This document shows positions 4,573 to 13,973 of a stretch of 64,000 nucleotides of DNA, in pieces (position 1 is the stretch's first letter; each line of letters starts with the position of its first letter). The notes under the pieces were generated by a model, which had not been told where the DNA came from, searched no databases, and saw nothing but the letters and a program-made list of their open reading frames with translations. Both the position numbers and the translations under genes were made by a program. The stretch comes from Sphaerisporangium krabiense (lineage in GTDB: Bacteria; Actinomycetota; Actinomycetes; Streptosporangiales; Streptosporangiaceae): assembly GCF_014200435.1 (NCBI RefSeq), contig NZ_JACHBR010000001.1, positions 5,274,001 to 5,338,000 on the forward strand, read 5' to 3'.

Positions 4573-5646
4573 TCAGCCTGCGGGGGCGCCCCAGCCGGCG
4601 CGGTACTCGGCCCAGTCGGTCTCGGTGGCCGCGAAGTCCACGTACAGGGCGACGCCGAAGTCCCGCCGGTCGCCGGAGCCGAGGGCGAGGCGCACGCCCC
4701 GGATCGCGGCCCGCATCGTCTCCGCGGACGGGTGGTGGGTCCAGTTGTCGTCGTGGTAGGCGGGCACGCCGACCAGCAGTCGCGTGGACGGCGGCACGGC
4801 GGCGAGCGCCAGCGCGGTCTGGCGCCGGACGTACCCGGTGAACAGGGCCTCGGTCGGCTGGGCGGTGTCGTAGGTCATCAGCGCCACCTGGTGGACGCGG
4901 CGGGCGACCTGCGTCATGTACCCCGGCGTCCACCACCGCTCCTCGCCGAACACCAGGCCCTGGGCGGCGCTCATGCCGGGCAGCGGCTCCATCTGGTGCA
5001 CCGACATCGACAGCACGGCGCGGGGGAGCGCCGCGCGCGTGCGGTCCAGCACGTCCAGCAGGCCCTGGTCGTCGTCGTCGACCGGCTCGAAGTTGTAGTG
5101 GATCCCGTCGAACCCGGCCGCCATCGCCTGCCCGGCCGAGCGGACGATCGCGGCGCGCGTCGCGGCCGAGGACAGGTCCATGAGCCCCGGGTCCAGCCGC
5201 TGCCCGAGCCAGGCGTGCACCCGCACGCCCGGCAGCGCGCGGCGTAGCGCGGTGACGGCCCAGGCGGCGCGGGGGTAGAGGGAGGCGGGCAGCGTGCCGT
5301 CGGTGGCGAGCGGCCCGGTGTGGACGTACAGGTCGCGCACGCCGGTGCCGCCGATCCGGGCGGCCAGGGCCGCGACCTCGGGGTCGCCGTTGCGCCCGTC
5401 CACCCACGCGTGCCCGAGCCAGACGGCGTCCCCGCCGCGCGTGACGGCGTGCGGCGTGCCCGTGCTGAGCAGATAGAGGGCCGTCCCCGACGCGACGAGG
5501 GCCAGCGCGGGGACCGAGACGACGATGACGGCCGCCGTCCACAGCCGCCGCCACCGCACCCGGCTACGGGGCCGCCCGGCGGCCGGCGCCGCGCCGGGCG
5601 GCTCCTGTTCGTCGCGGGCGGAGGCCGGAGAACCAGGCTGAGGCAT
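4573..5646 (-). CDS. Membrane-anchored GH18-like TIM-barrel protein
   Basis: A 357-residue protein with a short basic cytoplasmic tail, one membrane segment at about residues 37-60 (TAAVIVVSVPALALVASGTALYLL, seen in part), and an extracytoplasmic domain. That domain resembles glycoside hydrolase family 18: GFDGIHYNFEP is comparable to the DGxDxDxE strand-4 motif with the final acidic residue kept, and QVALMTYDTAQ resembles strand 6. The central aspartates of the motif are replaced by Ile/His and Asn, so chitinase activity is doubtful; a binding or altered glycosidase role on cell-wall glycans is possible. It is convergent with lepB, with 25 bp between stops. The function is not established. 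Confidence 0.65.
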   Translation of the reverse strand: MPQPGSPASARDEQEPPGAAPAAGRPRSRVRWRRLWTAAVIVVSVPALALVASGTALYLLSTGTPHAVTRGGDAVWLGHAWVDGRNGDPEVAALAARIGGTGVRDLYVHTGPLATDGTLPASLYPRAAWAVTALRRALPGVRVHAWLGQRLDPGLMDLSSAATRAAIVRSAGQAMAAGFDGIHYNFEPVDDDDQGLLDVLDRTRAALPRAVLSMSVHQMEPLPGMSAAQGLVFGEERWWTPGYMTQVARRVHQVALMTYDTAQPTEALFTGYVRRQTALALAAVPPSTRLLVGVPAYHDDNWTHHPSAETMRAAIRGVRLALGSGDRRDFGVALYVDFAATETDWAEYRAGWGAPAG

Positions 5647-5730
5647 GACGAAGCAGCATATCGGCCCTTATCGCGGACGGTCGCGGATCGGGCATACCTG
5701 GGGCGCGGTGTGTGGGCGCACTCGATCGTT

Positions 5731-5747
5731 GTCTCACCATATGAGAC
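5731..5747. promoter_or_regulatory. Inverted-repeat operator upstream of sulfur cluster
   Basis: GTCTCA-ccata-TGAGAC is a perfect 6-bp inverted repeat with a 5-bp spacer. It lies just upstream of the -35 element TTGACT of the putative leader/transporter promoter, where an activator or repressor dimer could act. The regulator is unknown and no regulator gene is encoded next to it. Confidence 0.5.
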
Positions 5748-5752
5748 TGCAC

Positions 5753-5784
5753 TTGACTGCCCTATTACCTACCGGAAATATAGG
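5753..5784 (+). promoter_or_regulatory. Promoter of organosulfur cluster
   Basis: A -35 TTGACT at 5753-5758 is followed by an AT-rich -10 region (AAATATAGG, 5776-5784) at a 17-18 nt spacing. This is the most AT-rich stretch in the 400-bp gap. The predicted transcription start falls at or next to the GTG at 5789, so the leader peptide could be translated from a leaderless mRNA. Confidence 0.5.
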
Positions 5785-5788
5785 CAAT

Positions 5789-5860
5789 GTGCCGATTGTG
5801 AACTTGACCGTCCGGCGCGCGATCGACTTCATGCACGTGGACAGCAGCCTCTGTCAGTGA
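5789..5860 (+). CDS. Putative leader peptide, sulfur-type
   Basis: A 23-codon ORF starting GTG and ending RRAIDFMHVDSSLCQ-stop. Short actinobacterial leader peptides upstream of sulfur-assimilation genes commonly contain an R-R-[HA]-[IV]-D/HVD block and finish in S-[AS]-L/M-C. This peptide has the same layout with one terminal cysteine codon. It lies 194 bp upstream of the transporter's binding-protein gene, behind a plausible promoter. An alternative GTG (5798) and an internal ATG (5831) are in frame. The likely role, by inference, is ribosome-mediated sensing of cysteine supply that controls read-through into the transporter genes. Confidence 0.6.
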   Translation: MPIVNLTVRRAIDFMHVDSSLCQ

Positions 5861-5940
5861 ACGTGTTCCGTCTCGCGCGGTCCTCGCGCTGGAGACGACG
5901 CCTCTCACCGCCTGTTCCCGACCCACCAGAACCGCCGTCA

Positions 5941-5979
5941 GGACCACGTCCTCGCCCCTGTCCGGGGGCCTACGCCCCA
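5941..5979 (+). promoter_or_regulatory. Hairpins in leader before transporter genes
   Basis: Two short hairpins lie between the leader peptide and the first structural gene: AGGAC-cac-GTCCT (5941-5953) and GGGGC-ctac-GCCCC (5966-5979). They could form part of an attenuator with the leader peptide. They have no U-tract and short stems, so this is tentative. Confidence 0.3.
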
Positions 5980-6053
5980 TGCCCCGCGGCCGGTTCTCCA
6001 CCGGTCCCGCCTGTCCTCTCACCGTGCTCTCTCGTCGTTAGGTACTCGCCATC

Positions 6054-7118
6054 ATGTGGAAAACCCCCAGGCCGCACGCCCGTCCCCGGCGCGTGGCGCT
6101 CGCCGCGCTCGCCCTCACCGTCGCCGGGCTGGCGACCGCCTGCGGAACCTCCTCCGCGGCGGGCGGCCCGGCGTCCAAGGGCTCAGGAGCGGTCCTCAAG
6201 CTGCAGGACCCCGGAAACGCCGGCCCCCTGGCCTACGCCAAGCGCGAGGGCCTCCTGGAGAAACGCCTCAAGGCCGTCGGCGCCACGGTCGAGTGGGGCG
6301 GCTCCTACGCCTCGTTCACCGCCACCGTCGACGCCGTCCACGCCGGCTCGGTGAACATCCTCACCGGAGCCATCTCGCCCGCCATCGGCTACCTCGCCAA
6401 CAGCCCCGACATCAGGATCTTCTCGGTCACCGACCCCGTCACCGACCCGGCGGCCCCGCAGACCGACGGCCTGGTGGTGCGGCCCGACAGCCCCGTCAGG
6501 TCCGTGAAGGACCTGGTGGGCAAGCAGGTCGCCGTCAACAAGGGCGGCAAGGGCGAGTACCTGCTCCTGCTCGCGCTGGAGAAGGCCGGCGTCCCCGTCG
6601 ACCAGGTCAAGCGCGTCTACCTCAACCCCGACCAGGGCGCCGCCGCGTTCGCCACCGGCAAGGTGGACGCCTGGTGGGCCATCGTCCGCGCCTACCCCGA
6701 GGCCGTCGCCAAGGGCGCCCGGGTGATCGTGCACGGCCGCGACCTCGACGACAAGGACCTCACCATCATCGCCGCACGCAAGGAACTGCTCGACCGCGCG
6801 CCCGCGGCCGTCCGCGTCTACCTGGAGGTGCTCCAGGAACTGACCGAGGAGGCCAGGAAGACCCCGGAGAAGTTCGAGAACGTCTTCCTCACCCAGGGGC
6901 CCACCGCCGTCACCGGCGCCCGCCTCGCCCTGGACATCGAAACGGCCAAGCACGCCATCGTCCCCCGGTACGCCACCAAGGAGGACGGCGCCTACATCAC
7001 CGCCGTGGCGGACCTGTTCCGCAAGTACGGGGTCGTCACCAAGCCCATCGACCCCGCCGACGTCCTCTTCGACCTCAAGGCCGCGACCACCTCCGCCTCG
7101 CCCGCCGCCTCGGGGTGA
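6054..7118 (+). CDS. ABC transporter substrate-binding lipoprotein (SsuA/TauA type)
   Basis: A 354-residue periplasmic-type binding protein anchored as a lipoprotein: basic n-region, hydrophobic stretch, and lipobox LATAC with Cys at residue 30. The mature part resembles aliphatic sulfonate, taurine and nitrate binding proteins, with the DSPVRSVKDLVGKQVAVNKGGKGEYLLLLALEKAGV region typical of that group (shown in parts: SVKDLVGKQVAV, KGEYLLLLALEKAG). It should capture an organosulfur solute outside the membrane and hand it to the permease encoded 4 bp downstream. The ATG at 6054 gives a complete lipoprotein signal. The neighbouring desulfinase-like and monooxygenase genes favour a sulfonate or sulfinate over nitrate. 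Confidence 0.85.
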   Translation: MWKTPRPHARPRRVALAALALTVAGLATACGTSSAAGGPASKGSGAVLKLQDPGNAGPLAYAKREGLLEKRLKAVGATVEWGGSYASFTATVDAVHAGSVNILTGAISPAIGYLANSPDIRIFSVTDPVTDPAAPQTDGLVVRPDSPVRSVKDLVGKQVAVNKGGKGEYLLLLALEKAGVPVDQVKRVYLNPDQGAAAFATGKVDAWWAIVRAYPEAVAKGARVIVHGRDLDDKDLTIIAARKELLDRAPAAVRVYLEVLQELTEEARKTPEKFENVFLTQGPTAVTGARLALDIETAKHAIVPRYATKEDGAYITAVADLFRKYGVVTKPIDPADVLFDLKAATTSASPAASG

Positions 7119-7122
7119 CGCC

Positions 7123-8007
7123 ATGACCATCGAGAAGGTACACGAGCCGCCCGCGCGGCGGCCCGCGCCCGGCCCGCGGGAGGGCCGGGACGGCGCGGCG
7201 GCGGGACTGGAGACGCCGAGGTTCCTCGGCGCCCGCCGCCGCCCCGCGGCCCTGTCCGCCGCGCTGCGGATCTCCGTCCCCCTGCTGCTCCTGGCCGCCT
7301 GGTGGTACGGGTCCGCCAGTGGGCGCATCCCGCCGGACGTGCTCGCCGCGCCCTCCGCGGTCCTCGGCGCGCTGCGCGAGCTGGCCGCCACCGGGCAGCT
7401 CGCCGACTACCTGCTCGCCTCCGGGCACCGCGCCGGGCTCGGCGTGCTCACCGGCGGCGGCCTCGGGCTCGTGCTCGGCGTCGCGGCCGGACTGTCGGCG
7501 CTCGGCGAGGAACTGGTCGACCCGACCATGCAGATGCTGCGTGCCGTGCCGTTCCTCGCGCTCGTCCCGCTGTTCATCTCGTGGTTCGGGGTCGGCGAGA
7601 CCTTCAAGATCCTGCTCATCGCGGTCGCCGCCGCCATCCCGATGTACGCCTACACCTATCTGGGAGTCAGGAACGTGGACCGCAAGGTCGTGGAAGCGGC
7701 GCGCGGGTTCGGCCTGCGCGGGCACCGGCTCGCGCTCGGCGTGGTCGTCCCGAGCGCCCTGCCCAGCGTGCTCATGGCCCTGCGCATCAGCCTGTCGGTC
7801 TCGCTGACCGGCCTGATCGCCGCCGAGCAGATCGGCGCCACCGAGGGCATCGGCTACCTCGTCACGCTCGCCCAGCAGTACTTCCGCCCCGACTACATGG
7901 TGCTGTGCGTGCTCGTCTACGCCGCGCTCGGGCTGATCTTCGACGGCGCCATCCGCGTGGTGGAGCGGCTGGCCATGCCGTGGCGCGGCCAGGTGGTGGC
8001 CCGATGA
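7123..8007 (+). CDS. ABC transporter permease (SsuC/TauC type)
   Basis: A 294-residue inner-membrane permease of the BPD_transp_1 family with about six hydrophobic segments after a 40-residue Pro/Arg-rich cytoplasmic tail. The EAA loop, which docks the ATPase, reads EAARGFGLRGHRLALGVVVPSALP and is the canonical E-A-A-x3-G form seen in sulfonate and taurine permeases (key residues around 196-215). It follows the binding-protein gene by 4 bp and overlaps the ATPase gene by 4 bp (ATGA), so the three transporter parts are made together. The substrate is inferred from context. Confidence 0.9.
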   Translation: MTIEKVHEPPARRPAPGPREGRDGAAAGLETPRFLGARRRPAALSAALRISVPLLLLAAWWYGSASGRIPPDVLAAPSAVLGALRELAATGQLADYLLASGHRAGLGVLTGGGLGLVLGVAAGLSALGEELVDPTMQMLRAVPFLALVPLFISWFGVGETFKILLIAVAAAIPMYAYTYLGVRNVDRKVVEAARGFGLRGHRLALGVVVPSALPSVLMALRISLSVSLTGLIAAEQIGATEGIGYLVTLAQQYFRPDYMVLCVLVYAALGLIFDGAIRVVERLAMPWRGQVVAR

Positions 8008-8744
8008 GCGAGCCCGTCTTCCAGCCGCGCGGCGAGATCCCCGGCGAGCTGGCCGTCCAGGTCAGGGGGCTGCGCAAGGCGTTCGGCCCCAAGATCGTGC
8101 TGGACGGCGTCGACCTGGACATCCGCAGGGGCGAGTTCTTCGCGCTGCTCGGCCCGAGCGGCACCGGCAAGACCACGCTGCTGCGCATCCTGGCCGGGCT
8201 GGAGCTGCCCGACGCGGGCACCGTCCTCGCCGCCCGCCGGCGCACGACCGTCTACCAGGAGCCCCGGCTCATCCCCGCCCGGCGGGTGCTCGCCAACGTC
8301 ACCCTCGGCCTGCCGTCCGCGGCCCGCGAGGCCGGGCGCCGCGCGCTCGCCGAGGTCGGCCTCGACGGGTACGCCCGCAAGTGGCCCGCGACGCTGTCCG
8401 GCGGCGAGGCGCAGCGCGTGGCCCTGGCCAGGGCCCTGGTGCGCGACCCCGAGGTGCTGCTGCTGGACGAGCCGTTCGCCGCGCTCGACGCCCTCACCCG
8501 CCTGCAGATGCAGGACCTGGTCGCCGAGCTGTGCGAACGGCACCGCCCGGCGGTCGTCCTGGTCACCCACGACGTGGAGGAGGCGGTCCGGCTCGCCGAC
8601 CGCGTGGTGGTGCTGCGCGACGGCGCGCTCGCCGTCGACAGGACCATCGACCTGCCCCACCCCCGCGACCGCAACGCGCCCGAGTTCGCCGACGCCCGCC
8701 GCCTGTTTCTGTCCCACCTCGGCGTCACCGCCGCCGTCCACTGA
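8004..8744 (+). CDS. ABC transporter ATP-binding protein (SsuB type)
   Basis: A 246-residue ABC ATPase that powers the adjacent permease. It has the Walker A motif GPSGTGKTT, Q-loop VYQEPRL, signature LSGGEAQR, Walker B LLLDEPFAALD and H-loop VTHDVEEA, all intact, and ALTRLQMQDLV matches the nitrate/sulfonate/taurine subfamily. The start ATG overlaps the permease stop. Downstream there are 17 bp to the desulfinase-like gene, consistent with one transcript. Confidence 0.93.
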   Translation: MSEPVFQPRGEIPGELAVQVRGLRKAFGPKIVLDGVDLDIRRGEFFALLGPSGTGKTTLLRILAGLELPDAGTVLAARRRTTVYQEPRLIPARRVLANVTLGLPSAAREAGRRALAEVGLDGYARKWPATLSGGEAQRVALARALVRDPEVLLLDEPFAALDALTRLQMQDLVAELCERHRPAVVLVTHDVEEAVRLADRVVVLRDGALAVDRTIDLPHPRDRNAPEFADARRLFLSHLGVTAAVH

Positions 8745-8761
8745 GTCACCCGAGGAGTCCC

Positions 8762-9805
8762 ATGACCTCCGTCGACAAGCTTTGGTACACCCGCTGCCCC
8801 GTCCCCACCGCCAGCGGCCTCGCCCACCACCAGGGCTGGCTCGCCGAGGAGTTCCGGGCCGCGGGCCTGGAGATCGGCATCCTGCAGGACGCGGAGCCCG
8901 AGCTGGCCGAGCGTCACTTCGACCACCGCCTGCTCGGCCTGTTCCGCGAGGGCGGCAACGTCCCCGCCCTGGCCGCGCGGTCCGCCGGGGCACCGACCCG
9001 GCTGATCGGCCTGACCTGGATCGAGGAGTGGCAGTCCATCCTCGTCCGCGCCGACTCCGGGATCACCAACGCCGCCGGCCTGGCCGGCGCCCGGGTCGCG
9101 CTGCCGGGCTGGGCCGAGACCCGCGGCAAGAGCTTCCCGCGGGCCATGGCCCTGCACGGCTTCAAGGGCGCGCTGTCGCAGGGCGGCCTCACCCTCGACG
9201 ACGTCACCTTCGTCGAGGTCGCCGCCCAGGTCAGGCCCAGCGTGGGCCGCGACGCGGGCGCGCGGGCCTTCGCCTGGCCCGGCATCGCCGAGCTGGCGCG
9301 CGGCGAGGTCGACGCCGTGTACGCCAAGGGGGCGCGCGCGGCCGAGCAGGCCGCCGAGATCGGCGCGGTCGTCGCCGTGGACCTCGACGCCCACCCCGAC
9401 GTGCGCACCCGCGTCAACAACGGCACGCCGCGGCCCATCACCGTCCACGAGCGCCTCCTCGACGAGCGGCCCGACCTGGTCGTCGGGTTCCTCGTCCAGA
9501 CGCTGCGCGCGGCCGAGTGGGCGCGCGGCGACCTCGCCCGGGTCCGCGAGATCCTCGCCGCGGAGACCAGGTCCGGCGCCGACGCGGTGGCCACCGCCTA
9601 CCGCGGGGACTTCCACCGCTCCCTGCACCCCGACCTGTCGGAGCACCGGCTGGACCTGCTCCGCGTCCAGAAGGACTTCCTGCTCGTGCACGGCTTCCTC
9701 GACGCCGACGTCGACGTCGCCGCGTGGGCGGCGCACGAGCCGCTCGCCGAGGCCCACAGGCGCCTGGCCGCCTGGGCCGACCTCGCCGGGGCGGTGGCGC
9801 GATGA
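8762..9805 (+). CDS. DszB-like desulfinase
   Basis: A 347-residue protein with the two-lobed binding-protein fold but no signal peptide. It resembles DszB, the 2'-hydroxybiphenyl-2-sulfinate desulfinase that releases sulfite in the 4S desulfurisation pathway. The N-terminus WYTRCPVPTA parallels DszB YSNCPVPNA. Cys12 would be the nucleophile (DszB Cys27), His52 matches His60, and Arg62-Glu-Gly-Gly65 matches the RxGG motif (Arg70-Gly73), with the same ten-residue His-Arg spacing. GAGGAG precedes the ATG. The next gene overlaps by 4 bp. DszB-specific biphenyl contacts cannot be judged, so the natural substrate is probably a different sulfinate. A non-catalytic cytoplasmic binding protein is the alternative reading. 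Confidence 0.72.
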   Translation: MTSVDKLWYTRCPVPTASGLAHHQGWLAEEFRAAGLEIGILQDAEPELAERHFDHRLLGLFREGGNVPALAARSAGAPTRLIGLTWIEEWQSILVRADSGITNAAGLAGARVALPGWAETRGKSFPRAMALHGFKGALSQGGLTLDDVTFVEVAAQVRPSVGRDAGARAFAWPGIAELARGEVDAVYAKGARAAEQAAEIGAVVAVDLDAHPDVRTRVNNGTPRPITVHERLLDERPDLVVGFLVQTLRAAEWARGDLARVREILAAETRSGADAVATAYRGDFHRSLHPDLSEHRLDLLRVQKDFLLVHGFLDADVDVAAWAAHEPLAEAHRRLAAWADLAGAVAR

Positions 9806-10869
9806 CCGAGACCCCCGAGTTCCTGGTCACCGTCCCCACGCGCGGCGACGGGCGCCACCCGCTGCGCCGCGACCGCGGCGACTGGGAGGAACGCCGCCCG
9901 CTGCCCGCCTTCGTCACCGACCCGCGCGGCGGGGTGTCCGGGCCGTCCGCCCACATCGCCCAGGTGGGCAGGGCCGCCGAGATCGCCGGCCTGGACGGCG
10001 CTCTGGTCCCCTTCGACCCCGAGGGCGAGGAGTCGCTGGTGCTGGCGGCCGGGTTGCTGCGCGGCAGCAGGCACCTGCGCGTCATCGCCGGGTTCCACGC
10101 CGGGATCGCCACCCCGGTGTACGCGGCCAAGCTGTCCGCCTCCCTGCAGCGGTTCACCGGCGGGCGGCTCGACTGGCAGATCGACGTCGCCCTCGACCCG
10201 GTCGTGGCCCGCGCGCACGGCGACTTCCTCCAGGGCGGCGACCGCTACGCCCGCGCCGAGGAGTTCCTCACCGTCGCCAAGGGCGTGTGGCACGAGGAGG
10301 GCTACACCTACGAGGGCGTCTTCTACCAGGTGCTCGCCGGCGGATTCCAGCCGCCCAACGCCGGCCTGCCCTTCCCGCGCGTCCACCTCAGCGGCATCGA
10401 GCCCGGCGCGCTCGCGCTGTCGGCCCGCCACGCCGACGTGCACCTGTTCGACCCCGGCCAGAACCTCGACGTCGGGATCGCCGGCCTGGGCGACCGCGCG
10501 GCGGCAGAGGGACGCGCGGTCGCCTACGGCCTGCGGCTGCCGGTCCTGGCCCGTGAGGACGAGGAGGAGGCGTGGCGCGAGGCCCGCGGCCTGTGGGCGC
10601 TGGCGGGCGGCGCCGACGAGGACTTCCCCCGCCCGGACCCGAAGACCGGCCTGTGGCCGGGCTTCGACCGGATCGCGGGGCCGGGCGCGCTCGGCCTGGT
10701 CGGCTCCTACGAGGGCGTCGCCGCCGGGATCCGCGCCTACCGGGACCTCGGCGTCACGACGTTCGTGCTGTCGGCCCGGCCCACCGTCGAGGAGGCCTAC
10801 CGGCTCGGCGAGCGCCTGCTGCCCCTGTTCGCGACGGAGTCCCAGAAGGAGACCGCGCATGTCCATTGA
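9802..10869 (+). CDS. LLM flavin-dependent monooxygenase, SsuD-like (first copy)
   Basis: A 355-residue luciferase-like (LLM) TIM-barrel flavoprotein related to alkanesulfonate monooxygenase SsuD. GRLDWQIDVALDP aligns with the GRL-N-VTGGDP flavin/phosphate region but has lost the GG step. RYARAEEFLTVAKGVW and the LVGSYEGVAAGIRAYRDLG C-terminal block are family hallmarks. Enzymes of this family use reduced FMN and O2 to cleave C-S bonds or oxidise sulfur. The gene overlaps the desulfinase-like gene by 4 bp and the second LLM gene by 11 bp. No FMN reductase (SsuE/DszD) is encoded nearby, so reduced flavin must come from elsewhere. Confidence 0.85.
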   Translation: MTETPEFLVTVPTRGDGRHPLRRDRGDWEERRPLPAFVTDPRGGVSGPSAHIAQVGRAAEIAGLDGALVPFDPEGEESLVLAAGLLRGSRHLRVIAGFHAGIATPVYAAKLSASLQRFTGGRLDWQIDVALDPVVARAHGDFLQGGDRYARAEEFLTVAKGVWHEEGYTYEGVFYQVLAGGFQPPNAGLPFPRVHLSGIEPGALALSARHADVHLFDPGQNLDVGIAGLGDRAAAEGRAVAYGLRLPVLAREDEEEAWREARGLWALAGGADEDFPRPDPKTGLWPGFDRIAGPGALGLVGSYEGVAAGIRAYRDLGVTTFVLSARPTVEEAYRLGERLLPLFATESQKETAHVH

Positions 10870-12028
10870 CATCTACTGGCGCATCGGCACCCACGGCGAC
10901 CAGCCGTCGCTGCGCCGCCGGGTGACCAGCAGGGGTGAATGGGCGCCCGTCGTGCCGGGCAGCCTCGCCCCCGGGGTGCGGCACGGCCGCCGCGACGGCT
11001 ACTCCTACGTCGAGCACATGGCCGACGTCGCCCGCGCCTCCGAGGTCTCCGGGTTCGTCGGCGGGCTGCTGCCGTCCTTCCCCTTCACCGACGACCCCTG
11101 GGCCACGGCCGCCGCGCTCGCCCGCGAGACCACGACCTACCGGTTCATGATCGCCTACCAGCCGGGGTTCCTGCACCCGGTGCAGGCCGCGCGCATGTCG
11201 GCCACGTTGCAGCGGGCGACCGGCGGGCGGCTCGTCTACAACATCATCTCCGGCGGAGGCGGCCCCGCCCAGCTCTGGTGGGGCGACCGCGTCGACCACG
11301 ACGACCGGTACGCGCGCACCTCGGAGTTCCTCGACGTCCTCAAGGGCGTGTGGAACGGCGGGCCCTTCGACTACGAGGGCCGGTTCTACCGGGTCGAGGG
11401 CGCCGGGCTGCCCGAGCCGCTCGCCCGCCAGCCGTTCCCCGAGATCTACTTCTCCGGGTCCTCCAAGGCCGCGATCGAGGCGGCGGGCCGGCACGCCGAC
11501 TACTACCTGTCCTGGCTGGAGCCGTTCCCCGACCTCGCCGCCAAGTTCGCCCAGGTGCGCGAGCACAGCGCCGCCCTCGGCACCGCCCCGAAGTTCGCCG
11601 TGCGCATCGACGTGCTGGCCCGCGAGACCGAGGAGGCCGCCTGGGACGAGATCAGGCGCGGCTGGGAGCACGTCGACCCGTCCGCGCTGGCCAGCGCGGA
11701 CGGCGACTCGGTGGGCTGGCTGCGCAGCCAGTCGTTCGTGTCCTGGCCGGTGCGCCACCACCGGGAGCTGGAGGTCTCCCCGAACGTCTGGGGCGGCTTC
11801 CACCTGCTGCGGGGCGGCCCGGCGTTCGGCCTGGTCGGCAGCTACGCGCAGGTCGCCGAGCGGCTGGACGAGCTGATCGGCCTCGGCGTCGGCGCCTTCA
11901 TCCTCGCGGGCGTCCCGCACCTGGAGGAGGCCTACCGCGTCGGCGAGGAGGTCCTGCCCCTGCTCAAGGGCCACGACGTGCGCGTGGCCTCCCCCCTCAC
12001 GGCGGCGCTGTCCGACTCCCGCGCCTGA
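10859..12028 (+). CDS. ssuD: LLM flavin-dependent monooxygenase, SsuD-like (second copy)
   Basis: A 389-residue LLM-family protein closer to canonical SsuD than its neighbour. It contains YRFMIAYQPGFLHPVQAARM, ATLQRATGGRLVYNIISGGG, a DRYARTSEFLDVLKGVW segment and IYFSGSSKAAIEAAGRHADYY in part. These are the SsuD substrate/flavin barrel strands, including the GG-containing phosphate site that the first copy lacks. The expected reaction is FMNH2- and O2-dependent conversion of a sulfonate to an aldehyde plus sulfite. The ATG overlaps the preceding gene by 11 bp. The symbol reflects family resemblance; the true substrate may differ. Confidence 0.85.
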   Translation: MSIDIYWRIGTHGDQPSLRRRVTSRGEWAPVVPGSLAPGVRHGRRDGYSYVEHMADVARASEVSGFVGGLLPSFPFTDDPWATAAALARETTTYRFMIAYQPGFLHPVQAARMSATLQRATGGRLVYNIISGGGGPAQLWWGDRVDHDDRYARTSEFLDVLKGVWNGGPFDYEGRFYRVEGAGLPEPLARQPFPEIYFSGSSKAAIEAAGRHADYYLSWLEPFPDLAAKFAQVREHSAALGTAPKFAVRIDVLARETEEAAWDEIRRGWEHVDPSALASADGDSVGWLRSQSFVSWPVRHHRELEVSPNVWGGFHLLRGGPAFGLVGSYAQVAERLDELIGLGVGAFILAGVPHLEEAYRVGEEVLPLLKGHDVRVASPLTAALSDSRA

Positions 12029-12077
12029 CCCCCTGTCCCGACCTCCGTCCGCGACCACGCTTGAGAAAGGCTCGAAC

Positions 12078-12995
12078 ATGAGCGTCCGTGTCGGCTACTT
12101 CCCGCACAACAACTCGCTGTGGGTGCTGCGCCACCGCGGCATCCTGGAGCGCTCCCTGCCCGACGTCGAATGGGTCGACCTGCGCTCCCTCCCGTCCGGC
12201 GAGCGCCCCGACCCCACCAGGTCCCTGCCGTCCCTGCACGGCGACCACCTGTTCGACGGCGGGTACGACTTCATCGGCACCGGCTCCACCCCGCCGGTCA
12301 CCGCCCAGGGCAAGGGCCACGACATCGTCTACGTCGCGGTCTCCGGCTCCCGGCACGAGAACGGGCGGCTGGTCGTCAAGCAGGACTCGCCCATCCACTC
12401 CCTGGAGGACCTGGCCGGCAAGCGCGTCGCGCTCGGCCACGGCTCCTGGCAGACCACGCTGCTGCTGTTCGCCCTGGACCGCGCCGGGCTCACCTGGAAG
12501 GACATCGAGCCCGTCGACGTCTACGGCGACGCCGCCCAGCTCTTCCTCGACGGCGAGGTGGACGCCTGGGTCGGCTCCTACCCCGCGCTGACCCGCGTCG
12601 AGCGCGAGACGACCGTCCGCGAGCTCGTCGCCACCGACGGGCTGTTCAGCCACCGCTCGCTGTGGTTCACCCGCCGCGACTTCGCCGCCGATCACCCCGA
12701 GGAGCTGGCCGCCATCGTCGCCGCCCTCCAGGAGTCCGACGCCTGGATCCGCGAGAACCCGCGCGCCGCGGCCGAGCTGTTCGCCGCCGACGACGGGGGA
12801 GACCTGGACGCGTGGGAGCACGCCCTGCGCACCCGCCCGTTCGGCCTCAACCCGGTCACCGAGGACTTCGTCGCCGAGCAGCAGCGCGCCGCCGACCTGT
12901 TCCACGCGAGCGGCCTCATCGACCGCAAGATCACCGTCTCCGAGGCCGTCCTGCCGGAGCTCAACCGCCTGGTCGAGTCCACCCGCCGCCCCTGA
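12078..12995 (+). CDS. Signal-less SsuA/TauA-fold protein
   Basis: A 305-residue protein with the sulfonate/nitrate binding-protein fold: QDSPIHSLEDLAGKRVALGH and a FLDGEVDAWVGSYP region match SsuA-type proteins. It starts directly in the fold (MSVRVGYFPHNNSLWVLRHR), so there is no signal peptide or lipobox, and it also lacks the CPVP and RxGG motifs of the DszB-like gene upstream. GAAAGG precedes the ATG. It is the last gene of the cluster, 49 bp after the second monooxygenase, and a hairpin follows. It may be a cytoplasmic binding protein, a substrate-channelling partner or a diverged enzyme. Which of these is right cannot be decided here. Confidence 0.7.
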   Translation: MSVRVGYFPHNNSLWVLRHRGILERSLPDVEWVDLRSLPSGERPDPTRSLPSLHGDHLFDGGYDFIGTGSTPPVTAQGKGHDIVYVAVSGSRHENGRLVVKQDSPIHSLEDLAGKRVALGHGSWQTTLLLFALDRAGLTWKDIEPVDVYGDAAQLFLDGEVDAWVGSYPALTRVERETTVRELVATDGLFSHRSLWFTRRDFAADHPEELAAIVAALQESDAWIRENPRAAAELFAADDGGDLDAWEHALRTRPFGLNPVTEDFVAEQQRAADLFHASGLIDRKITVSEAVLPELNRLVESTRRP

Positions 12996-13032
12996 CCCCG
13001 GCCGGGCCCGGTCGCGCGGAGAGGCGAGGGCC

Positions 13033-13069
13033 GTCCCGGGGGACCGGCCGCGATCCGGTCTCCCGGGAC
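13033..13069 (+). terminator. Hairpin closing the sulfur cluster
   Basis: A 15-bp stem with one mismatch (arms 13033-13047 and 13055-13069) and a 7-nt loop, 38 bp after the last gene of the cluster. There is no T-tract, as is common for high-GC actinobacterial terminators. Confidence 0.65.
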
Positions 13070-13100
13070 GGACGGCGCCACGCCGGGGCCCGATTGCTGA

Positions 13101-13106
13101 CAGGCT
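13101..13106 (+). promoter_or_regulatory. -10 element for leaderless PHP gene
   Basis: CAGGCT ends exactly 6 nt before the ATG at 13113, which would place the transcription start on the start codon. There is no Shine-Dalgarno before the gene. Confidence 0.45.
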
Positions 13107-13112
13107 CGGGGC

Positions 13113-13973
13113 ATGCGGATCGATCTGCACACGCACTCCACCGCGAGCGACGGCACCGACGCCCCCGACGTCCTGATGAGGCACGCCGCCGGGGCCGGGC
13201 TCGACGTGATCGCGCTGACCGACCACGACACCACGGCCGGATGGGCGCGGGCGGCCTCGGCCGTGCCGCCGGGGCTGACGCTGGTGCCCGGCGCCGAGCT
13301 GTCGGGACGGTGGTACCGGGACGAGCCGACGATCGGCCTGCACCTGCTGGCCTACCTGTTCGACCCCGGCCACCCGGGGCTGACGGCCGAGCTGGCCGCG
13401 GTGCGGCGCTCACGCGACCGGCGCGCCGAGGCGATCGTCGAGATGCTGAACGCCGACGGCGTAGACCTCACCATGGACGAGGTGCGCGCCCTGGTCGCGG
13501 GCGGCACCGCCGGCCGCCCGCACGTGGCCCGCGCCCTGGTCGCCCGCGGCCTGGTCGGGTCGGTGGACGAGGCGTTCGCCCCCCAATGGCTCGGCGGGCG
13601 CTACCGGCTCCCCAAGACCGACATCGACGTGCTCACCGCGATACGGCTGATCGGCGAGGCGGGCGGCGTGGCCGTGCTGGCCCACCCCATGGCGGGCAGC
13701 CGGGGCCACGTCCTGCCGGACGCGCTGATCGCCGGCCTCGCGGACGCCGGGCTGTGGGGCATCGAGGCCGATCACGTCGACCACGCGCCCGAGGACGCCG
13801 CCCACGTCCGCGCGCTGGCCCGCGAGCTGGGGCTGCGCGTGACCGGGTCCAGCGACTACCACGGCGACAACAAGACCGTCCGGCTCGGCGCCTTCACCAC
13901 CGGCCGCGAGGTCTACGAGGACCTGGTGTCCACCGCGACCGGCGCCGTCCCCGTCCAGGAGCCCGCCCGGTGA
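13113..13973 (+). CDS. PHP-domain phosphoesterase
   Basis: A 286-residue metal-dependent phosphoesterase of the PHP superfamily (TrpH/YciV group). The N-terminal LHTHSTASDGT and LTDHDTTAG motifs, a later AHPMAGSRG block and SSDYHGDNK near residue 248 supply the His/Asp ligands for the metal cluster; all are present. Characterised relatives hydrolyse 3',5'-nucleoside bisphosphates or trim RNA 5' ends in the cytoplasm. The gene appears to be transcribed alone and leaderless. It is convergent with the aminotransferase, with 7 bp between stops. The exact substrate is not predicted. Confidence 0.88.
   Translation: MRIDLHTHSTASDGTDAPDVLMRHAAGAGLDVIALTDHDTTAGWARAASAVPPGLTLVPGAELSGRWYRDEPTIGLHLLAYLFDPGHPGLTAELAAVRRSRDRRAEAIVEMLNADGVDLTMDEVRALVAGGTAGRPHVARALVARGLVGSVDEAFAPQWLGGRYRLPKTDIDVLTAIRLIGEAGGVAVLAHPMAGSRGHVLPDALIAGLADAGLWGIEADHVDHAPEDAAHVRALARELGLRVTGSSDYHGDNKTVRLGAFTTGREVYEDLVSTATGAVPVQEPAR

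Follow-up and report, generated by a model that had tools for sequence, protein, structure and literature searches.

The described system closest to the locus analyzed here is the bds locus of Gordonia terrae C-6. In the available part of that report, genes GTC6_01620 to GTC6_01585 are annotated, in order, as a substrate-binding protein (SBP), a permease, an ATPase, a desulfinase, an FMNH2 monooxygenase, an alkanesulfonate monooxygenase, a hypothetical protein and a further SBP (PMC3868597). RNA-seq ratios for benzothiophene vs. sulfate were 112 to 188 for seven of these genes and 92 for bdsC, and in a table of 37 genes the eight genes of the locus rise together with 29 others; only bdsABC were cloned (KC831580), and extracts of E. 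coli carrying them, supplied with DszD, NADH and FMN, converted benzothiophene to o-hydroxystyrene (PMC3868597). The flavin reductase of C-6 is encoded elsewhere (GTC6_04560), and the same source names Rhodococcus qingshengii IGTS8 among the strains that are seemingly unable to desulfurize benzothiophene (PMC3868597). A set of IGTS8 genes with elevated levels in dibenzothiophene culture, peg4799 (SsuA), 4801 (SsuB), 4802 (SsuA/DszB), 4804 (SsuD) and 4806 (SsuA), is labeled as sulfonate transport and sulfur acquisition, and the available part of that paper names no substrate for the DszB-like protein (PMC8557817). Here we describe a related seven-gene cluster of Sphaerisporangium krabiense, located in a 64,000-nucleotide (nt) stretch (the window, whose positions are used below) that corresponds to 5274001-5338000 of contig 1 of the 8.53 Mb genome. 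With a probability of roughly 0.55, we consider it a Streptosporangiales form of a bds-type sulfur-scavenging operon, in which a sulfone would be converted to a sulfinate and then to sulfite. A preliminary description of this DNA regarded the gene combination as new, but, as far as the available parts of the two papers go, the same order had already been reported from C-6 (PMC3868597) and the IGTS8 genes look alike (PMC8557817). What is probably new, judging from the sequences, is the presence in a widely shared operon of a probable pseudoenzyme partner, the luciferase-like monooxygenase (LLM) family protein LLM1, and of a cytosolic binding protein, SBP7.

The span 5731-12995 comprises a palindrome, a promoter-like element, a second palindrome and a leader upstream open reading frame (uORF), followed by the seven genes:

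5731-5747, no strand: palindrome GTCTCA-ccata-TGAGAC just 5' of the -35; possible activator or repressor site
5753-5781, + strand: promoter-like TTGACT-17-AAATAT, its -10 ending 7 nt 5' of the leader start codon
5764-5788, no strand: imperfect palindrome ATTACCTA...TAGGCAAT overlapping the -10; likely operator
5789-5860, + strand: leader uORF of 23 codons with GTG start and TGA stop; MPIVNLTVRRAIDFMHVDSSLCQ
6054-7118, + strand: SsuA-like substrate-binding lipoprotein with lipobox ...LATAC
7123-8007, + strand: SsuC-like permease of an ATP-binding cassette (ABC) importer; best NCBIfam match SsuC, 41.8% identity to E. coli SsuC over 237 amino acids (aa)
8004-8744, + strand: SsuB-like ABC ATPase; best NCBIfam match SsuB, 53.2% identity to E. 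coli SsuB over 205 aa
8762-9805, + strand: predicted DszB-like sulfinate desulfinase, from PDB sequence matches and aligned catalytic residues
9802-10869, + strand: LLM1, LLM family protein of SsuD fold in which little of the SsuD active site is left; proposed non-catalytic partner
10859-12028, + strand: LLM2, predicted SsuD-like FMNH2-dependent monooxygenase retaining Trp196, Arg226 and Arg297
12078-12995, + strand: SBP7, highly conserved SsuA-fold protein without signal peptide or Cys, presumably cytosolic; TIGR01728 match

The C-6 bds locus has the gene order of the window plus one gene, a likeness that rests on order and annotation. The additional gene, GTC6_01590, lies between monooxygenase and SBP, is missing from the window, and is aldolase-like in the loci that resemble C-6; conversely, the window has a leader and an operator, whereas the fetched C-6 look-alike loci have neither. 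In IGTS8, five of the eight consecutive loci peg4799-4806 fit the window order by annotation, while peg4800, 4803 and 4805 fall outside the table in the available part of the paper (PMC8557817). The E. coli operon ssuEADCB shares with the window the importer and an LLM2 homologue (33–53% identity over the aligned parts), but it includes SsuE and has no DszB homologue, second LLM or cytosolic SsuA-like protein, the converse of what is found here. An SsuABC-type importer and an SsuD-type monooxygenase are present and an SsuE in the operon is not: Pfam and NCBIfam scans revealed no flavin reductase among the seven genes, as had been noted from the outset. With the dszABC operon of IGTS8 the window shares DszB, in the form of a homologue that preserves the catalytic residues, whereas it has no DszA or DszC orthologue and does have an importer. 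Ssu-type families score best for the importer components, though none of these scores above the curated threshold for an Ssu equivalog. Matches in NCBIfam, Pfam and PDB thus bear out the gene identities first proposed, i.e., an SsuABC-type importer and DszB-like, SsuD-like and substrate-binding proteins.

The seven-gene order recurs in other genomes. Peptide patterns of the DszB-like protein were used to collect 34 loci, which are consequently a biased set (L and G numbers denote loci and genomes). All seven genes occur in the same order and on the same strand in 20 of these loci, and two more (L044, L051) end at contig edges. Six Microbispora loci combine the DszB-like gene with another importer, followed in five by an SsuD-like gene (L061 ends before that point); the remainder comprises one Aeromicrobium locus with an inverted importer and five divergent loci, one from a Rhodospirillales metagenome-assembled genome (MAG) and four from Streptomyces or Actinacidiphila. 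Given the 20 ordered loci and the best scores of the parts as Ssu-type, nitrate or taurine genes are not a constant attachment of the cluster, a possibility that the preliminary description had raised. In even samples of genomes, the window genome (G000) included, a DszB-like gene was found in 28 of 150 genomes of the order (E ≤ 1e-10) and in 13 of 394 genomes of the class (E ≤ 1e-15). Twelve of 14 loci from two genera of one family (L113-L124) keep the seven-gene order, LLM2 and SBP7 being separated by 745-1019 nt, and the other two (L125, L126) are divergent; L080 likewise has the seven-gene order with an extra gene before SBP7. The gene in this gap is class II aldolase-like in L113, L116, L118, L121 and L080, with Pfam PF00596 on the L118 protein. 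Across 16 genomes it was matched strongly in five (G573, G712, G759, G626, G434); in G070, of the window's own family, the match did not exceed 30%, and the remaining ten, among them G000, gave none. None of the ten genomes searched from that family held a close counterpart. The presence of this gene elsewhere may point to a substrate whose carbon skeleton is hydroxylated or sugar-like.

At E ≤ 0.001 the only PDB sequences matched by the DszB-like protein are two DszB sequences (best E 5.6e-20), and the alignment pairs its Cys12, His52, Arg62 and Gly65 with DszB Cys27, His60, Arg70 and Gly73, which we take to be the residues with catalytic roles, so that each has an equivalent in the window protein. 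Conservation of these positions is nearly complete (Cys12 in 42/43 rows, with one gap; His52 in 42/43; Arg62 and Gly65 each in 43/43), and 41 of the 43 rows contain a single Cys, always the catalytic one. Identity to DszB amounts to 37% over 309 aligned columns with many gaps. The DszB-like rows share a conserved stretch, RVNNGTPRPxTVH; because it is not found in DszB, the substrate probably differs from that of DszB. It is very improbable that the protein is instead another NMT1-fold enzyme or a binding protein: such an origin would fit the Pfam and NCBIfam scans, which detect only NMT1 and SsuA, as well as the limited identity and the protein's own motif VNNGTPRPxTVH, but DszB is the only PDB match at the threshold given, the catalytic residues are retained, and the sole Cys that is kept in proteins otherwise shedding sulfur is the catalytic one.

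A second DszB-like gene exists in the same genome (G000:C1:4767340-4768284; L082 7841-8815). It is solitary, its product is 44% identical to the cluster protein, and its catalytic Cys is replaced (TRAPEP vs. TRCPVP). The gene that precedes it on the opposite strand appears ATP-grasp-like by eye.

Both LLM1 and LLM2 fall into the SsuD branch by their best matches (28% and 35% identity to E. coli SsuD, respectively). For LLM2, SsuD (1m41) scores 225 bits vs. 39 bits for DszA, and the match to TIGR03565 reaches 267.5 bits at a cut-off of 518.2. DszA or DszC orthology was considered for both proteins and rejected on the basis of sequence and profile matches to SsuD. Residues were compared at SsuD sites in mature numbering using 41 rows for each protein, after removal of the mis-called LLM2 of L053 (702 aa); we assume active-site roles for SsuD Cys54, His228, Tyr331, Arg226, Arg297 and Trp196. 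LLM2 retains Trp196 (40/41), Arg226 (41/41), Arg297 (40/41) and both Asn105 and His124 (41/41), and carries substitutions of Cys54 by Thr (41/41), His228 by Asp (37/41; His in 0/41) and Tyr331 by Val or Asn (38/41; Tyr in 0/41). Among LLM1 rows, Cys54, Asn105, His124, Trp196, His228 and Tyr331 are kept in 0/41, Arg297 in 2/41 and Ser178 in 3/41. Neither protein has the complete residue set of SsuD proper. The two had been described as different SsuD-like monooxygenases, which is true of their fold, although little of the SsuD active site survives in LLM1.

In LuxAB, neighboring genes encode two LLM subunits, of which one is intact and the other degenerate. The simplest reading of the residue losses suggests a LuxAB-like pair of a non-catalytic LLM1 and a catalytic LLM2: the pattern of an intact and a degenerate member is the same, although LuxAB sits on a different branch of the family. 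A comparable arrangement occurs in Sphingobium, where an intact LLM2 relative adjoins a degenerate LLM from which Arg127, Tyr128 and Arg226 are missing as well; the Rhodospirillales MAG has a similar degenerate LLM neighbor, though as a less clean pair. In a tree of a 45-row subset, LLM2 of 18 loci forms one clade (100/98), LLM1 is a single group in 29% of bootstrap trees, and two LLM1-type rows have very long branches. A narrow literature search, with most subscription journals outside its reach, found nothing on an LLM1-type partner subunit. LLM1 is the faster-evolving of the two LLM proteins: mean pairwise identity over 35 sets, window included, was 0.545 for LLM1, 0.546 for the lipoprotein, 0.709 for SBP7 and 0.750 for LLM2 (dropped for length were the permeases of L051, L067, L089 and L124, the ATPase of L086 and LLM2 of L053).

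Several properties of LLM1 argue in another direction. Its structural model is a full, confident SsuD/MsuD-like barrel (predicted local distance difference test, pLDDT, 85.4) with MsuD 7jv3 as the closest PDB match (E 1.1e-28), from which LLM1 is predicted to be a retained, folded protein. It also keeps Arg226 in 27/41, Arg127 in 38/41 and Tyr128 in 37/41 rows. That LLM1 is an active second monooxygenase with a changed cofactor (e.g., F420) or substrate, acting in sequence with LLM2 and not as its partner subunit, would be in line with the barrel, with the two residues kept in most rows and with invariant residues of its own in 23 aligned sequences (e.g., Arg87, Lys110, Trp125, Glu154). We regard such an activity as unlikely: six SsuD sites are kept in no LLM1 row and Arg297 and Ser178 in very few, LLM1 is with the lipoprotein the least conserved of the seven proteins, well below LLM2, and its proteobacterial counterparts have lost even more SsuD residues.

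SBP7 is SsuA-like by both sequence and fold and exceeds the TIGR01728 cut-off (165.7 vs. 163.5 bits). No signal peptide was found, a lipobox is present in 0/40 rows, and in 23 of 39 loci the gene begins within the last codons of LLM2, with an overlap of 1 or 4 nt (the window has a gap of 49 nt). The last two observations confirm the signal-less binding-fold protein of the preliminary description and rule out a mis-started secreted protein. SBP7 is more conserved than the exported lipoprotein (0.709 vs. 0.546), and its fold neighbors include the cytosolic enzymes DszB and Thi5 as well as the regulatory domain of the CmpABCD transporter. Cys occurs in 0/40 rows, and 39/40 contain no Met; because of the missing Cys, DszB chemistry is impossible for this protein. 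As a guess, it could be a carrier, a sensor for the importer or an enzyme.

The region upstream of the seven genes offers a possible link to sulfur supply. The operator was originally placed at the palindrome 5731-5747, which is indeed present but weak taken alone: GTCTCA-N5-TGAGAC is matched with up to 3 mismatches in 18/100 shuffles of the window, and, among the 39 upstream regions compared (the window being one of them), eight have it directly 5' of the -35 at up to 2 mismatches. The second palindrome is better conserved, and its core ACCTACCGGAAATATAGG at 5767-5784 appeared in 0/100 shuffles. This element and the promoter precede the cluster in 21 of the 39 regions, i.e., the window and 20 Streptosporangiales loci (L058 doubtful), which share TTGAC... 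and a palindrome-like ACCTA...TAGG across the -10; a consensus promoter scan returned 0 promoter-like sites and so did not call TTGACT-17-AAATAT. The leader uORF is found in 17/39 regions with the consensus MPxVxLTxRRxxDxMxxDSSLC, a conservation that rules out a chance open reading frame (ORF). The first description of a leader ending in Cys therefore stands with respect to the leader, but not entirely with respect to its end: Cys is the penultimate residue in the window and the last one in L042, L043 and L068. Seventeen regions (two of them, L085 and L089, from the window's own family) show neither element, L115 giving a weak, chance-like match, and the upstream region of L044 is too short (157 nt). 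Promoter, operator and leader were thus detected only in part of the Streptosporangiales; with the patterns used, this locus alone matched leader or operator in its own genome, and the leader query against NCBIfam returned nothing useful. A conserved uORF with a Cys near its end, ahead of sulfur genes, is what is expected of a Cys-responsive leader. Since its start codon lies only 7 nt past the -10, the mRNA may be leaderless; polycysteine leaderless uORFs reportedly act as attenuators in mycobacteria.

The composition of the proteins also bears on sulfur supply. The sparing of sulfur is extreme: Cys and Met after the start codon make up 0.66% of residues in the seven proteins vs. 2.54% in 35 other, crudely called ORFs of the window (Mann-Whitney p 0.0003). 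LLM1 and SBP7 of the window contain neither residue after the start codon, and the permease alone is ordinary (2.39%). Low sulfur content has been described for proteins made under sulfur starvation in the available parts of three reports (PMC7661421, PMC11022551, PMC8557817). Such a Cys-poor make-up may help to flag operons of this kind in unannotated genomes.

Combined, these features suggest the following course of events. Under sulfur starvation the operator would be released, and a Cys-sensing leader would let expression proceed. By their families, the lipoprotein and the SsuC/SsuB-like proteins would import an anionic organosulfur compound. In the cytosol, LLM2 would use FMNH2 from a reductase encoded elsewhere to cleave the C-S bond of a sulfone, yielding a sulfinate; given its active-site loss, LLM1 would serve as its structural partner, as LuxB does for LuxA. 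The DszB-like enzyme would hydrolyze the sulfinate to sulfite via the observed Cys12, His52 and Arg62, and SBP7 might, as a guess, bind substrate or product in the cytosol for hand-over or sensing. The sulfur of a sulfonate is more oxidized than that of a sulfinate, and only a sulfone or lower-valent sulfur can be oxidized to a sulfinate. For this reason, oxidation of an imported sulfonate to a sulfinate, included in the preliminary description, is excluded, while the proposed link to sulfur starvation is supported, as is, at the level of residues, a pathway ending in DszB-type desulfination.

A number of observations weigh against this scheme, in addition to the residues and the barrel retained by LLM1. 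A sulfonate-type importer beside a sulfinate route is awkward, since SsuD alone would suffice for a sulfonate. In the Rhodospirillales MAG, Trp196 and Arg297 are missing even from the LLM2 relative, which speaks against a strict rule for such pairs. No leader was found in four of the 21 regions that carry the promoter element (L052, L053, L056 and L058, where the element lies 169 to 32 nt 5' of the lipoprotein gene), and folding of the leader RNA is not unusual (single-sequence fold z 0.74). With few mismatches allowed, bds primers matched no cluster locus among those fetched, and the forward primer had only a 3-mismatch site in 251 genomes of family f6 and 59 of genus g112, located in G696, which has no DszB-like match. 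An alternative would be two parallel routes behind one importer, with LLM2 desulfonating sulfonates to sulfite, the DszB-like protein hydrolyzing imported sulfinates, and no sulfone involved. The SsuD residues Trp196, Arg226 and Arg297 kept in LLM2 and the proximity of importer and SBP7 to sulfonate systems favor parallel routes, as does Microbispora L064, in which the DszB-like gene is accompanied by another ABC importer and an SsuD-like gene, with four more Microbispora loci alike. We nevertheless consider them rather unlikely, because the substitutions of Cys54, His228 and Tyr331 in LLM2 indicate that substrate or chemistry probably differs, and because the fixed order DszB-LLM1-LLM2 suggests consecutive steps.

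Benzothiophene itself would call for a different sequence, proposed for bdsABC, in which oxidation of the sulfur to a sulfone by LLM1 is followed by ring opening through LLM2 and release of sulfite by the DszB-like protein. The extracts that formed o-hydroxystyrene from benzothiophene support it (PMC3868597), but as far as the available parts of the papers show, IGTS8 has and expresses such a cluster and yet seems unable to desulfurize benzothiophene (PMC3868597, PMC8557817), so that benzothiophene is doubtful as the natural substrate. Furthermore, benzothiophene is a neutral oil for which no sulfonate importer is needed, a DszC-like step by LLM1 is unlikely without the SsuD active site, and the 29 further genes that rise with the eight bds genes look like a general sulfate starvation response in the available part of the C-6 report (PMC3868597). 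A benzothiophene pathway is therefore quite improbable, and we retain the import of an anionic compound and the sulfone route as the preferred reading.

Gene ends overlap at 8004/8007, 9802/9805 and 10859/10869, the remaining gaps being 4, 17 and 49 nt, and a consensus scan found no terminator-like site in 5600-13400 (about 1.1 expected by chance). Because the genes overlap or nearly touch and no such site intervenes, it is plausible that all seven are on one transcript. At E 0.001, Pfam gave no match for the upstream neighbor (4573-5646, - strand), and the downstream neighbor (13113-13973) encodes a PHP domain.

DszB-like genes also occur in other settings. In L091 (Sphingobium sp. TomTYG65 plasmid pTomTYG65a, 263538-282461), three DszB paralogues and an LLM1/LLM2-type pair belong to a larger organosulfur cluster that also encodes a sigma-54 activator, a nitroreductase and two permeases and includes a class II aldolase-like gene. 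In genus g112 (L125 5971-8000, L126 6203-8157), a distant LLM1-like gene lies directly 5' of a distant DszB-like gene, at 30–33% identity. L090 (a Streptomyces plasmid), L081 and L083 contain genes for DszB-like protein, lipoprotein, permease, ATPase, SBP7-like protein and one SsuD-like protein; no LLM1 was recognized in these three, and in L090 the residues of the SsuD-like protein are of the SsuD type. On rhizobial megaplasmids, e.g., L093, DszB homologues are common (about 37–41% identical where listed), and Sinorhizobium and Rhizobium account for 47 and 22, respectively, of 87 records. For plasmids of Burkholderia cenocepacia and Sinorhizobium meliloti, the records carried no annotated feature in the stretch examined, and in a crude ORF list of the Burkholderia stretch no LLM1-type partner was recognized.

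A broader reading is tentative, and we rate it somewhat below even odds: a DszB-type desulfinase may be fed by a C-S-cleaving monooxygenase that is a heterodimer like LuxAB, with BdsB/LLM1-type proteins as its non-catalytic subunits and an SsuA-fold protein as cytosolic carrier or sensor, constituting a widespread third way of oxidative desulfurization beside Ssu and Dsz to which benzothiophene was wrongly credited. If LLM1 and LLM2 were an obligate pair, attempts to engineer or assay BdsC on its own would fail, and the cause would be known. The analysis questions the assignment to benzothiophene and provides testable roles for LLM1 and SBP7, both of them unexplained proteins. The published bds gene order is recast from a trait of one fuel-desulfurizing Gordonia to a sulfur-starvation operon common to many soil actinomycetes.

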